From Anaerolineaceae bacterium (GTDB lineage: Bacteria > Chloroflexota > Anaerolineae > Anaerolineales > Villigracilaceae), in contig VFJR01000024.1 in NCBI GenBank assembly GCA_009885945.1, positions 1 through 50,633 of the forward strand: a stretch of 50,633 bases of DNA. The letters run 5' to 3'. Numbering within the stretch: position 1 is the first letter of the stretch; every line of letters begins with the position of its first letter. Under the pieces are notes generated by a model that worked only from the letters and a program-made list of their open reading frames with translations, did not search any database and was not told where the DNA came from. This document shows, one piece after another, positions 19,678-23,974 of the stretch. The position numbers and the translations under genes are program-made.

Positions 19678-19840
19678 TTCCTTACATATAGGAATAAGAG
19701 CATAGACAAGCAAGTGAAAGTCAACGGTCTACCAAGATAAATTAATACATCAACCATAGGCAAATTTGGATGTATTTATGCGTTGGGTAAACAAAGGTTA
19801 TAATAATTTAAAAATAATATTTCTAAAGGAAAAAAATAGT

Positions 19841-20260
19841 ATGCTCTCTCTCATTTACGTAAGCAGTTCTGTAAAACTCTTGAACGATCAGGAATTACTG
19901 GCAATTTTGAAGAAAAGCAACGAGAATAATTCAGCCAAAGAAGTTACGGGGCTTTTACTGTATAAAGGCGGCAACTTCATACAGGTACTTGAAGGCGATG
20001 ATGAAGTTGTGAACGCCTTATATGAAAAGATTAAAACTGATCCCCGCCACAAAGATGTGACTGTTATTTCCAGAGAACAAACACAGACGCGTCAATTTCC
20101 TTCTTGGGGAATGGATTTTCAGAATTTGGATAGTTCAGCCATCAAGAACGAGCCGGGGTATAGTCAATTTTTACAAGATGAATTTACAGCGAGTATTTAT
20201 CGCGAGAATCCCACGCGAGCATCCATTATGCTCAAGACCTTCCGCGATAGTATGCGCTAA
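19841..20260 (+). CDS. standalone BLUF blue-light sensor protein
   Basis: This 139-residue flavin photoreceptor consists of a single BLUF domain and a short helical tail, with no attached output domain. The key residues are present with the spacing of AppA: Tyr6 (LIYVSS), Asn30, Gln48 (NFIQVLEG), Trp89 and Met91 (FPSWGMDF). It binds FAD and should signal through a separate partner, not identifiable here. ATG 19841 is supported by AAAGGA about 11 bases upstream. An earlier in-frame ATG at 19766 adds non-conserved residues. The gap 19678-19840 is AT-rich; TATAAT at 19799-19804 is a possible -10. Confidence 0.9.
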   Translation: MLSLIYVSSSVKLLNDQELLAILKKSNENNSAKEVTGLLLYKGGNFIQVLEGDDEVVNALYEKIKTDPRHKDVTVISREQTQTRQFPSWGMDFQNLDSSAIKNEPGYSQFLQDEFTASIYRENPTRASIMLKTFRDSMR

Positions 20261-20320: not shown

Positions 20321-22402
20321 TTACTCGTCTTTCTTTGCTTCCATTTCCTTCTTGTGCGCTTCAATGATCGGCGCCGCCACATGAGGTGGAACTGCATCAT
20401 AATGATCTAATTGCATAGTGAAGTAGCCGCGCCCGCCTGTAATAGAACGAAGCTGAGTTGTATAACGTGTCATCTCCGCCATAGGAACATTTGCCACGAT
20501 GACAGTATTTCCGCGTTCTGCGTCTGTGCCTTGCACACGTCCGCGGCGGGTGTTAAGATCGCCCATCACATCGCCCATGTTTGCGTCAGGAACAGTCACA
20601 CGCACATTCATAATCGGCTCAAATAAAACGGGACCTGCTTCATGCACTGCAATTTTGAATGCCTCGCGCCCGGCAATTTCAAAAGCCACGGGTTTCGAAT
20701 CTACTTCATGTTCTTTGCCGTCAAAGACAATCACTTTTACATTGCTCATAGGGTAGCCCGCAAAAGCGCCATGTTCCATCATCGCTTTGATGCCTTTTTC
20801 AATAGGAGGCAAATAAGACTTGGAAAGGTTCATGCCCACAAGTTCATCTTCAAATGCAAAATCGCCATCATGATAAGGTTCAATACGTAACTGCACTTCG
20901 CCAAATTGACCTGAACCGCCCGATTGTTTCTTATGACGATACTGCCCGCTGGCTTTGCGTGTAATGCCCTCACGATAAGGAATACGCGGTTCATGCGTTG
21001 CCAAACCAACTTGAAATTTTGCCTGAGCGCGATGCAAGGCTACATCAATGTGCTGATCACCCATGCCTTGCAACACAGTTTCATGAGTGATCTTATCGTT
21101 CTCCCATATAAGGGTCATATCTTCTTCGCATAAACGCGTCAATGTTGGTGATATCTTTGCTGCATCTGCTTGAGTCTTGGGCGTGATCGCCACACGATAT
21201 AACGCCGCAGGGAAACTAGGCGCAGCAATCGTTAGCGAATGATTTTTGTCGCAGAATGTATCTTTTGTGGACGTTGAAGTTAACTTTGAAACAGCGGCGA
21301 TATCTCCAGCGTGAATTACCTTTGCAGGAATCGCTTCTTTGCCACGCTGAAAATGTAAACCAGACATACGTTCATCCGCACCTTTGTTTTGATTCCAAAC
21401 ATGCGCATCGCCTTGAAGGGAGCCAGAATACAAACGGAAATATGTGACCTTGCCCACAAATGGGTCTGCGGTGGTCTTCCAAACATAAGCGGCTAGAGGT
21501 TCGTTATCAGATGGCTCAAGAGTCTCTTCGCCATTTTTTCCTTGAGCCATGCGCTTGGGTGCATTTAATGGAGAAGGCATCAAATCAATAATGTCATTGA
21601 GCAGGGCAATCGCACCCACTTCATGCCCACCCGCGGCGCAGAAGATCGGCACAAAACTTCCAGCGTAGACAACGTCCTCTAAACCGCGCACCATCTCCGC
21701 GTCGGTCAGTGAGCCGTTTTCGAGATATTTTTCCATCAGCTCATCTTCCCCCTCTGCGGCGGCTTCTACCATTGCAAAGTGAGCTTTTTCAGCGGCTTCT
21801 TTTAAATCAGCGGGAATATCAGCAATAGTTTTGCCATTGCCCATATAAGCCTTCATGCCGATAATATCAACGACCCCTTTAAAATCATGTTTAGCGCCAA
21901 TCGGAAGATGAACTTTAATAGCGCGCTTGCCGTGCGCATGCACAAATTCATCTAGCGCAGTATAAATCGTTTCAAAATCCGCATTATCGCGATCCATTTT
22001 ATTGATCACAAAGAAGCGCGGCAGATTAAACTCATCGGCATAGCGCCAGGCGATTTCAGTGCCTACTTCAATTCCAGCGACAGCATCTACTAAAATAATC
22101 GCGCCGTCAGCTACACTCAAAGCGGAAATTGTTTCTCCGATAAAGTCCGTGTAACCGGGCGCGTCTATTATATTTATTTTATGATCACGATGTTCAATGG
22201 GGATGACACTTGCATACAGCGATATTTTTCGACGATGTTCCTCATCATCATAGTCTGAGACCGTCGTTCCATCTTCAATCTTACCAAGTCGTGTAGTTGC
22301 CCCCGTTGCATGCAAGAAAGATTCCGCTAACATTGTTTTGCCCGCGCCGCCATGAGAGACCAGCGCAACGTTCCGTAAAAACTCGGTGGTATACTCTTTC
22401 AT
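20321..22402 (-). CDS. EF-G-like translational GTPase (FusA2-type)
   Basis: This 693-residue protein has the full EF-G domain layout. The GTP-binding motifs are HGGAGKT (17-23), DAPGYTDF (from Asp80) and NKMD (134-137). The P-loop region reads SHGGAGKTML rather than the AHIDAGKTT of canonical EF-G, which places it with the second EF-G type found in Actinobacteria and Chloroflexota. Its role in translocation or ribosome recycling is not established for this clade. Start ATG 22402 has GGAAGG upstream. A consensus promoter lies at 22449-22477. Confidence 0.88.
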   Translation of the reverse strand: MKEYTTEFLRNVALVSHGGAGKTMLAESFLHATGATTRLGKIEDGTTVSDYDDEEHRRKISLYASVIPIEHRDHKINIIDAPGYTDFIGETISALSVADGAIILVDAVAGIEVGTEIAWRYADEFNLPRFFVINKMDRDNADFETIYTALDEFVHAHGKRAIKVHLPIGAKHDFKGVVDIIGMKAYMGNGKTIADIPADLKEAAEKAHFAMVEAAAEGEDELMEKYLENGSLTDAEMVRGLEDVVYAGSFVPIFCAAGGHEVGAIALLNDIIDLMPSPLNAPKRMAQGKNGEETLEPSDNEPLAAYVWKTTADPFVGKVTYFRLYSGSLQGDAHVWNQNKGADERMSGLHFQRGKEAIPAKVIHAGDIAAVSKLTSTSTKDTFCDKNHSLTIAAPSFPAALYRVAITPKTQADAAKISPTLTRLCEEDMTLIWENDKITHETVLQGMGDQHIDVALHRAQAKFQVGLATHEPRIPYREGITRKASGQYRHKKQSGGSGQFGEVQLRIEPYHDGDFAFEDELVGMNLSKSYLPPIEKGIKAMMEHGAFAGYPMSNVKVIVFDGKEHEVDSKPVAFEIAGREAFKIAVHEAGPVLFEPIMNVRVTVPDANMGDVMGDLNTRRGRVQGTDAERGNTVIVANVPMAEMTRYTTQLRSITGGRGYFTMQLDHYDAVPPHVAAPIIEAHKKEMEAKKDE

Positions 22403-22448
22403 GATAAAACCCTTCCTTGTTATGTGGGATGGGAGTGCAAGTTCAATG

Positions 22449-22477
22449 ATTGTAAACAAACTTAAATAAATTGTCAA
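22449..22477 (-). promoter_or_regulatory. sigma-70-type promoter of the EF-G-like gene
   Basis: On the minus strand: TTGACA, a 17-bp spacer, TACAAT. A dyad TGATTGT / ACAATCA (22447-22453 and 22483-22489) brackets it and could be an operator shared with the divergent thioredoxin-like gene. Confidence 0.8.
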
Positions 22478-22506
22478 AGTAAACAATCATCTATTTGGAG
22501 TGACAA

Positions 22507-22989
22507 ATGAGTCTATTTTTTGGAGCGTATTCCTTTTTTTGGGTTGCGCTCGCGCTCGCAGTAGTAGCGGGAATTATTTTATTAACACGTAATCCAAAAT
22601 GGAATGATTATGTTGCCTTTGCTGTCATTGTCATCGGCTTAATCACAGCTTGGGTCATTCTTCATCCGCGCCAAACCATACTGACAGGCGACGCAAAAGA
22701 AGTGCAAGCCATGATCGGCGCTGGTCTGCCGGTATTGCTTGAATTTCAATCCCCTTATTGACTGGGTTGTACCGCGATTAAGCCCGTCGTTGACGAGCTC
22801 GAAGAAGAACTTGGCAGTAAAATCCATTTTATTCGACTTAACATTCAAGAACAAATTGGCAAAGACCTTGCACCAGTGTATGGCTTTCAAGCCACACCTA
22901 CTTTTATTTTTTTTGATGCAAACGGAAACGAACTATGGCGCCAAGTGGGCGGATTAGATGCCCAAAAGGTACGCGAATCAATTCGCTGA
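22507..22989 (+). CDS. membrane thioredoxin-like protein with in-frame TGA: candidate selenoprotein (UxxC)
   Basis: Read through TGA 22759-22761, the frame gives a 160-residue protein. It has two membrane helices (about 5-27 and 35-53) followed by a thioredoxin-fold domain. The TGA is codon 85, in SPY-U-LGC, exactly where the first Cys of C-x-x-C belongs; Cys88 is present. Downstream features are intact: KPVVDELEEELG, the cis-Pro loop ATPTFIFFD, NELWRQVGG, and a normal TGA stop. GGAG precedes the ATG. Selenocysteine insertion is the best reading. Alternatives are a Cys-to-stop mutation in a dying gene or a sequencing error. If translation stops at TGA, only the membrane part (84 residues) is made. 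Confidence 0.8.
22781..22799 (+). promoter_or_regulatory. SECIS-like hairpin downstream of the in-frame TGA
   Basis: AGCCCGTC (22781-22788), loop GTT, GACGAGCT (22792-22799), with one mismatch, starts 19 bases after TGA. Bacterial SECIS stem-loops sit in this position and usually carry G and U in the loop. It lies inside the coding sequence. Confidence 0.45.
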
Positions 22990-23041: not shown

Positions 23042-23974
23042 ATGAAAATCCTTTTCCTCTTCCTCGATGGAATTGGCTTAAGCCAACCTAACCCAGAAAT
23101 TAATCCATTTGCAAAGGCAAAGATGCCTTTCTTGAATTCTTTGCTCGGCGGCAAATCTCTTACAGTAGATGCTGTGCCTTACATTGGCGAATCTGCTTCT
23201 TTGCTGGCAATTGATGCAAACCTTGGCGTGAGCGGTTTACCTCAATCTGCAACAGGGCAAGGCGTTCTAATTACTGGGATCAATATCCCGCAAAAGCTAG
23301 GCTATCACTACGGACCGAAACCCAACCCAGAAGTGGCTGAATATTTAAATGACACTGTTTTTTCAAGAGTTACCCAAGCCGTCAAAAAAGCCGCATTGCT
23401 AAATGCCTATCCCCCGCGCTATTTTGAAGGAATCGAATCAGGCAAGCGGAATTACTCCTCTATTCCAATGGGTGTGACAAATGCGGGCTTGCCCTTATTT
23501 ACACACGAAGATTACTTTGCCGGCAGGGCTCTTTCAGCAGATTTCACAGGCGCGGGTTGGAAGGAATTTTTGGGCTTTCCGGAAGCGCCGCTTTTTACGC
23601 CAAAAGTTGCGGGCAATAAACTTGGAGAACTTGCCAAGCAATATGATTTCTCCTTTTTTGAATATTGGGCAAGCGATTACGCAGGGCACAAACAGGATAT
23701 GGAATCAGCTGTTAATCAATTGGAAACATTCGATGGGGTTTTACAGGGTTTATTGGAAACTTGGTCAAACGAAGACGGCTTAATTTTGCTGACATCAGAT
23801 CATGGCAACATGGAAGATCTCTCCACGCGCAAGCATACTGCGGCGCAGGTGCCTTGTTTACTGATCGGCTCCTCGGAGGCAAGGTCAGCTTTCAGCGCGG
23901 ATTTGAACGATCTAACGGGTATTGCTCCGCGTATTATGCAGATGCTGTTCGATGGAGATCATATTAATAAATAA
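23042..23974 (+). CDS. alkaline-phosphatase-fold metalloenzyme (phosphomutase/phosphodiesterase-like)
   Basis: This 310-residue protein belongs to the metalloenzyme superfamily that includes cofactor-independent phosphoglycerate mutase and phosphopentomutase. The N-terminal metal site is FLFLDGIGL (Asp9), a candidate nucleophile lies in GLPQSATGQ, and the C-terminal metal motifs are TSDHGNMED and KHT. It is shorter than phosphoglycerate mutase (about 510 residues), so the exact reaction is unknown. No signal peptide. No strong Shine-Dalgarno sequence precedes the ATG. Confidence 0.75.
   Translation: MKILFLFLDGIGLSQPNPEINPFAKAKMPFLNSLLGGKSLTVDAVPYIGESASLLAIDANLGVSGLPQSATGQGVLITGINIPQKLGYHYGPKPNPEVAEYLNDTVFSRVTQAVKKAALLNAYPPRYFEGIESGKRNYSSIPMGVTNAGLPLFTHEDYFAGRALSADFTGAGWKEFLGFPEAPLFTPKVAGNKLGELAKQYDFSFFEYWASDYAGHKQDMESAVNQLETFDGVLQGLLETWSNEDGLILLTSDHGNMEDLSTRKHTAAQVPCLLIGSSEARSAFSADLNDLTGIAPRIMQMLFDGDHINK

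Follow-up and report, generated by a model that had tools for sequence, protein, structure and literature searches.

Selenoproteins in which selenocysteine (Sec, U) takes the first position of a thioredoxin-type UxxC motif are already known as a wider kind. A 2026 review (PMC13188914) counts 119 families and, in its accessible part, lists a Trx selenoprotein (PF00085, UxxC) and a thiol:disulfide interchange protein (PF13098, UxxC); a first-pass annotation of the DNA described here had taken the existence of UxxC thioredoxin-like selenoproteins for established, and this listing agrees with it. As judged from its description in Table 1 of that review, the Trx selenoprotein shares with the protein reported here the thioredoxin domain, the order of Sec first and Cys second, and the in-frame UGA; our protein differs from it by two predicted N-terminal membrane helices. 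The interchange protein shares the UxxC motif, and our protein passes the PF13098 cut-off. Among the entries of Table 1 in the accessible text, none is described as a membrane-anchored thioredoxin, which is consistent with the first-pass remark that the membrane type was an unrecognised one, since two predicted helices precede the fold.

Gains of Sec are discussed for 17 families in the accessible part of PMC1794560, 15 of which are thiol-based redox homologues with UxxC, CxxU or TxxU motifs; the same source lists three selenoproteins for Chloroflexi. Sec-type formate dehydrogenases and Sec translation factors are reported in Anaerolineales (PMC4959059), in whose available text the word "thioredoxin" does not occur, just as "chloroflex" is absent from the available texts of PMC13188914, PMC9312934 and PMC12013277. 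Bacterial SECIS elements, which lie just downstream of the UGA, commonly have a small apical loop with a guanosine (PMC1088965, available part).

Here we describe a gene of an Anaerolineaceae bacterium that very probably encodes a membrane-anchored UxxC thioredoxin, together with its relatives.

Results

A thioredoxin frame continues beyond an in-frame UGA

The window, a stretch of 50,633 nucleotides (contig VFJR01000024.1), sits in a draft genome of 3.43 Mb in 209 contigs that is 95.7% complete. The frame of interest starts with an ATG and runs through 84 sense codons to a TGA at codon 85, after which 75 sense codons lead to a terminal TGA at 22987-22989 (Table 1); this layout had been given by the first-pass annotation with exact coordinates. 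Twenty-three open reading frames of at least 80 amino acids in the window end in TGA, and the selenoprotein-gene frame alone stays open for 75 or more codons beyond it.

Table 1 Features of the window at and around the UGA-interrupted gene
Feature	Position	Strand	Basis or remark
Very probable selenoprotein gene: predicted two-helix membrane anchor and thioredoxin domain, 160 residues, Sec at codon 85 (U-L-G-C)	22507..22989	+	
GGAG, probable ribosome-binding site, 6 nt before ATG	22497..22500	+	inferred from sequence
Two predicted membrane helices, H10-27 and H32-52 (residues 9-52), positively charged loop between	22531..22662	+	model, hydropathy, charge
In-frame UGA, putative Sec codon, first redox position of the thioredoxin motif	22759..22761	+	
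Cys88, second (resolving) redox residue	22768..22770	+	invariant in 29/29
SECIS-type hairpin, stem 22781-22788 with 22792-22799, loop GUU 22789-22791	22781..22799	+	covariation
Divergent neighbour, elongation factor G paralogue	20321..22486	-	adjoins the gene in at least 23/29 relatives' loci
Downstream neighbour, metalloenzyme-superfamily protein (PF01676)	23042..23974	+	downstream in at least 19/29 relatives' loci
BLUF blue-light sensor domain protein (PF04940), near the gene	19766-20260	+	

With Cys written for Sec, the joined protein scores 42.8 bits with Pfam Thioredoxin PF00085 (cut-off 23.5) and 36.9 bits with Thioredoxin_2 PF13098 (cut-off 27). These scores and the invariance of C88 and P131 in 29 of 29 loci uphold the earlier view of a coherent thioredoxin domain. 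In thioredoxins, the first residue of the C-x-x-C motif is the attacking residue. The heading of the first-pass annotation rightly placed the TGA at the first redox Cys; its further description of that position as the resolving one is wrong, the first residue being the one that attacks.

The best sequence match of the protein in the PDB is a thioredoxin (E 4.4e-18). The window protein reaches 51.6 bits with the NCBIfam equivalog model of thioredoxin, TIGR01068, which is below the cut-off of 96.8; by that model it is therefore not an ordinary thioredoxin. Twelve NCBIfam families match among the 29 members, i.e. the window gene and its relatives. DsbD (NF001419) is matched weakly in 10 of the 29 (best 1.7e-5). 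The only selenoprotein-named model among the matches, that of the rhodanese/DsbD-fusion-like TsoB (NF045694), is found in 8 of the 29 (best 2.5e-5); TsoB differs in being a named fusion protein with the motif UxxxxU and two Sec (PMC13188914, Table 1, accessible part).

An AlphaFold2 model shows two N-terminal helices (10-27 and 32-52) followed by a thioredoxin fold, with a mean pLDDT of 82.4. For the input, the window protein carried Cys at position 85 and was one residue longer because of the terminal TGA; 23 sequences were used. Nearly all of the solved structures listed by Foldseek as matches are thioredoxins, the best at E 9.1e-9.

Codon 85 is either TGA or a cysteine codon

We searched the window's genome and 60 relatives (61 genomes) with the protein and read the best 30 loci. 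Codon 85 is TGA in 21 of them, the window counted, and TGC or TGT in 8; in the last one the domain is lost. That locus, L050 in G019, retains the membrane helices and the C-terminal end, while the thioredoxin core between them is gone; with its core deleted, it was excluded from the redox-codon counts. In the 29 domain-keeping loci the codon is never anything other than TGA or Cys, an outcome of the comparison proposed on the first pass that favours a selenoprotein. Four positions are invariant in the alignment of these loci: C/U85, C88, T130 and P131, the last being the proline of the cis-Pro loop. Beyond the TGA, codon position 2 varies least and position 3 most in all 28 loci compared with the window (20 UGA, 8 Cys), a pattern characteristic of translated sequence under protein-coding selection.

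The UGA or the Cys form of the family is present in 28 of the 60 relatives searched. In a sample of the phylum, a profile search matched 41 of 400 genomes at E 1e-25 or better, with one in-frame TGA in 33 of the 41. Reading of these matches gave 17 new TGA loci, all with the TGA at the redox codon, and 4 new Cys loci; the 11 unread matches comprise those with TGA in G271, G374, G267, G090, G351, G074, G169, G357 and G131, and two without TGA, in G444 and G348. A separate search of named relatives used a Cys-only pattern and is biased by it; its 22 loci, all of the Cys form, were kept out of the TGA/Cys ratio. They are labelled Anaerolineales, Anaerolineae, Anaerolinea or Chloroflexi, and one Verrucomicrobia. 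The Cys homologue L103 lies on a contig labelled Verrucomicrobia UBA693, by lateral transfer or as a mis-binned contig.

In a tree built by a quick method from 68 rows (38 Sec, 30 Cys), parsimony asks for at least 14 changes between Sec and Cys. Four pairs of rows look like the same gene taken twice (L032/L095, L037/L097, L039/L100 and L040/L099). Repeated exchange of Sec and Cys at codon 85 within the family seems likely; we do not call it proven, because the well-supported branches force only 2 changes.

A covarying hairpin follows the UGA

The hairpin noticed on the first pass at 22781-22799, with its GUU loop, is present and covaries in both sets of UGA loci that we compared. It begins 19 nt after the TGA, and seven of its eight pairs form in the window sequence. 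Its place just downstream of the UGA and its small apical loop with a G fit the description of bacterial SECIS elements (PMC1088965, available part).

The alignment of the UGA loci is gapless over the 48 nt that begin with the UGA, and the stem corresponds to columns 23-30 paired with 34-41. In the 21 UGA loci, 91.1% of the stem cells hold standard pairs (shuffle mean 84.2), both sides have changed in 12 cells (shuffle mean 3.8) and the covariation score is 0.270 (shuffles 0.138); for each of these measures, 0 of 500 shuffles were as high. Shifting the stem partner lowers pairing to 43% or less. The 17 other UGA loci, which were not used to define the stem, gave similar results, with a pairing of 86.0% (shuffles 77.8), 12 both-side-changed cells (3.3) and a covariation score of 0.320 (0.165), again with 0/500 each. 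Two measures do not exceed the shuffles: how many pairs show a double change, a count reached by 233/500 shuffles for the 21 loci and by 64/500 for the 17, and, in the second set, the further pair types (350/500).

In the 8 Cys loci the stem columns pair in 46.9% of cells, equal to shuffles (46.3). Stem column 30 is C in 37 of 38 UGA loci versus 3 of 8 Cys loci; being the third position of a valine codon, it is left free by the code. All 38 UGA loci have G-U as the first two loop bases, but so do 7 of the 8 Cys loci; since these bases belong to a Val codon, they weigh little as evidence.

A covariance model made from the 21 loci found all 17 other UGA loci exactly at the UGA, with 24.1-63.3 bits. 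Four of 26 Cys loci fall within this UGA score range (L040, L089, L129 and L104). The best of them, L040 (1678-1725, 43.7 bits), combines the Cys form with a strong stem, and is likely to represent a recent change from Sec to Cys that left the hairpin behind.

When the stretch 22759-22805 is folded by itself, its stability does not exceed that of its shuffles (z 0.55), 140 of 200 being as stable or more so, and its predicted minimum is another fold; the hairpin becomes the predicted minimum only on a shorter stretch of 38 nt. The support for the hairpin is comparative, not energetic.

Selenocysteine machinery in the window's genome and its relatives

The genes for Sec insertion, whose search had been suggested on the first pass, were recovered in part. 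In the window's genome, selA on contig C55 scores 548.4 bits (cut-off 267.9) and selB on contig C164 scores 331.7 bits (cut-off 242.25). Contig C122 ends within selD, and the truncated match stays below the cut-off for that reason. The start of selD can be assembled from two frames together (G000:C122:16668-16915), with one frameshift near the contig end; its in-frame TGA, in SKCAGUASK, falls where Sec is frequent in SelD proteins, and Sec in the N-terminal loop is given as a feature of SelD in the accessible part of PMC13188914.

A complete selC was not found in this assembly by Rfam or ARAGORN, and ARAGORN finds no tRNA in the window. The eight best Rfam tRNA-Sec candidate loci were rejected, ARAGORN giving ordinary Ser, Leu, Arg, Gly and Met tRNAs for them, and Rfam has no match on the selA, selB and selD-match loci. 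It took the neighbour gene to bring the 3' half of selC to light. The tRNA-Sec gene of relatives G007 and G006 adjoins one for an M50-type protease (named from its sequence); in the window's genome such a gene lies at C148:295-1461, and positions 1-57 at the start of the same contig match positions 38-91 of the RF01852 model with 27.7 bits, the 5' end missing. Most likely selC was split by the assembly, since its 3' half opens C148 beside the M50-type gene that adjoins selC in relatives. With half of selC present and selD cut and frameshifted, an intact Sec gene set was not seen in this genome. A tRNA-Sec gene split between contigs is easily missed in presence/absence surveys of Sec use.

Among the 21 UGA genomes, selA is over the cut-off in 19 (not in G011 and G038), selB likewise in 19 (not in G038 and G054), and a tRNA-Sec match of at least 59 bits occurs in 17. 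The four below 59 bits are G000, the window's own, G043 (53.0), G038 (48.8) and G050 (43.9); this model also gives ordinary Ser-type tRNAs between 40 and 50 bits. G038, of the UGA form, has selA fragments and perhaps selB fragments, and its 48.8-bit match may be a tRNA-Ser. Seven of the 8 Cys genomes have both selA and selB over the cut-off. In G046, of the Cys form, selA, selB and a tRNA-Sec match are all absent over the cut-off.

A second UGA-encoded thioredoxin family

The hairpin model has six matches over the window's genome: the selenoprotein gene (59.2 bits), C64:14810 (22.6 bits, E 8.2e-4) and four others at E 0.12 to 0.57. We read the first two and that in C119, which contains no TGA-interrupted frame of note; C48:13754, C92 and C38 (E 0.2 to 0.57) were left unread. 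At the C64 locus (L154) a TGA interrupts a thioredoxin-like frame whose length, taken from the preceding stop, is 182 codons; it has a start of lipoprotein type and the motif FRYTUSTC.

Loci of this lipoprotein-type UxxC family also occur in 12 other genomes (L140-L151), with a lipoprotein-type start in 11 of the 12 (not in L149). The hairpin model places its match exactly at the UGA in 12 of 12, at E <0.01 in 11. The second family (L154, L140-L151) thus shares with the first a UxxC thioredoxin-like domain and a model-detected hairpin at the UGA; it differs in its mostly lipoprotein-type start, in contrast to two membrane helices, and in the surroundings of the motif. L152 has a further thioredoxin-like frame with an in-frame TGA (DWUAAC), preceded by an extended N-terminal region in which one stretch is hydrophobic.

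Gene neighbourhood

Neighbours were counted in 29 relatives' loci with flanks of at most 1.5 kb, so that all counts are lower bounds. Besides the neighbours given in Table 1, a class I methyltransferase gene lies downstream in at least 23 of the 29 loci, usually directly adjoining or no more than about 110 nt away. For two example methyltransferases PF13649 is the best match, and their scores exceed the TPMT and TehB cut-offs as well. In L025 the ATG of this gene (1992-2555) shares bases with the selenoprotein gene's stop in the sequence ATGA, an overlap that would tie translation of the methyltransferase to ribosomes that have passed the UGA. At the locus in the window's genome the methyltransferase gene is absent, and the best matches elsewhere in that genome are 24-25% identical. 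A transfer of S- or Se-methyl groups linking the methyltransferase with the selenoprotein is a guess.

L049 has a second thioredoxin-like gene (Cys) between the UGA form and the methyltransferase gene, possibly a tandem duplication. The BLUF domain protein of the window has no match in the relatives' loci searched, whose flanks are short.

Discussion

We consider it very probable that the window gene encodes a selenoprotein, as the exchange of TGA and Cys at codon 85, the covarying hairpin, the Sec genes and the selection beyond the TGA all point to Sec insertion. SelB and Sec-tRNA would decode the UGA as Sec, directed by the hairpin downstream, and the product would be a protein of 160 residues in place of a membrane anchor of 84. 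Its two N-terminal helices would tether it to the cytoplasmic membrane and carry one thioredoxin domain, in which Sec85 would attack and Cys88 resolve; such a Sec-Cys pair would make for fast thiol/disulfide exchange.

At both helices the aligned members show hydrophobic peaks and almost no charge, so that the helices are conserved by prediction. The loop between them has a mean of 2.8 K/R and a net charge of +1.8 (28 members), the N-tail a mean of 0.1 K/R (23 members), and the stretch after helix 2 about 2 K/R with a net charge of +0.4 (29 members). According to the positive-inside rule, positively charged loops stay inside. Because the loop is positive and the N-tail neutral, the loop would lie inside, and both ends with the thioredoxin domain outside; judging from these charges, we regard this N-out, C-out topology as probable. 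The outward-facing domain would then most likely reduce disulfides of envelope proteins, and it is towards this reductase role that we lean.

A selenoprotein whose domain faces the cytoplasm instead, where thioredoxin reductase would serve it and its targets would be cytoplasmic ones near the membrane, is unlikely, although it would agree with the positive residues that also follow helix 2 and with the position of the gene beside others, that of the EF-G paralogue among them, whose products are cytoplasmic. The inter-helix loop is nevertheless the most positive segment and the N-tail is neutral, which puts both ends outside, and the N-terminus of the second UGA-encoded thioredoxin in this genome is of the exported, lipoprotein type.

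It is highly improbable that the UGA is read as another amino acid (Cys, Trp or a near-cognate one) through reassignment or leaky termination. Nothing specific speaks for it, and the Cys homologues show that a thiol works at this position; TGA is, however, an ordinary stop that ends five of the 37 window ORFs of at least 200 amino acids as well as the selenoprotein gene itself, there are Sec genes as well as a SECIS-type hairpin, and among the 29 genomes it is G046, the one described above as having no selA, selB or tRNA-Sec match over the cut-off, that has the Cys form. We give hardly any credence to a true stop or an assembly error, which would leave a recent pseudogene or a membrane peptide of 84 residues: the standard code does end the frame at this TGA and the genome is a draft in many contigs, but 20 other genomes have TGA at the same codon, the frame past it is under protein-coding selection, a covarying hairpin follows, and in L025 the next gene begins on the distal stop.

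The reading as an outward-facing membrane selenoprotein can be carried one step further. Tentatively, helix-anchored and lipoprotein-anchored Sec thioredoxins might together form a selenol electron relay at the outer face of Anaerolineales cells, the helix-anchored one coupled to the TPMT/TehB-like methyltransferase; we put this forward as a doubtful though possible arrangement.

We found no published description of the two-helix UxxC family in the literature searched, which was mostly non-subscription and largely consisted of titles and the starts of abstracts. As far as this search extends, the two-helix membrane-anchored UxxC thioredoxin subfamily and its conserved neighbourhood are new. 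By the standard code, its UGA genes read as short membrane peptides, and the thioredoxin domain would thus tend to vanish from annotation. Since Sec and Cys seem to have been swapped repeatedly, with hairpin and residue changing together, the family should lend itself to studying the reasons for which selenium is retained or lost. Its occurrence further suggests that these bacteria use selenium in the redox chemistry of their envelope.
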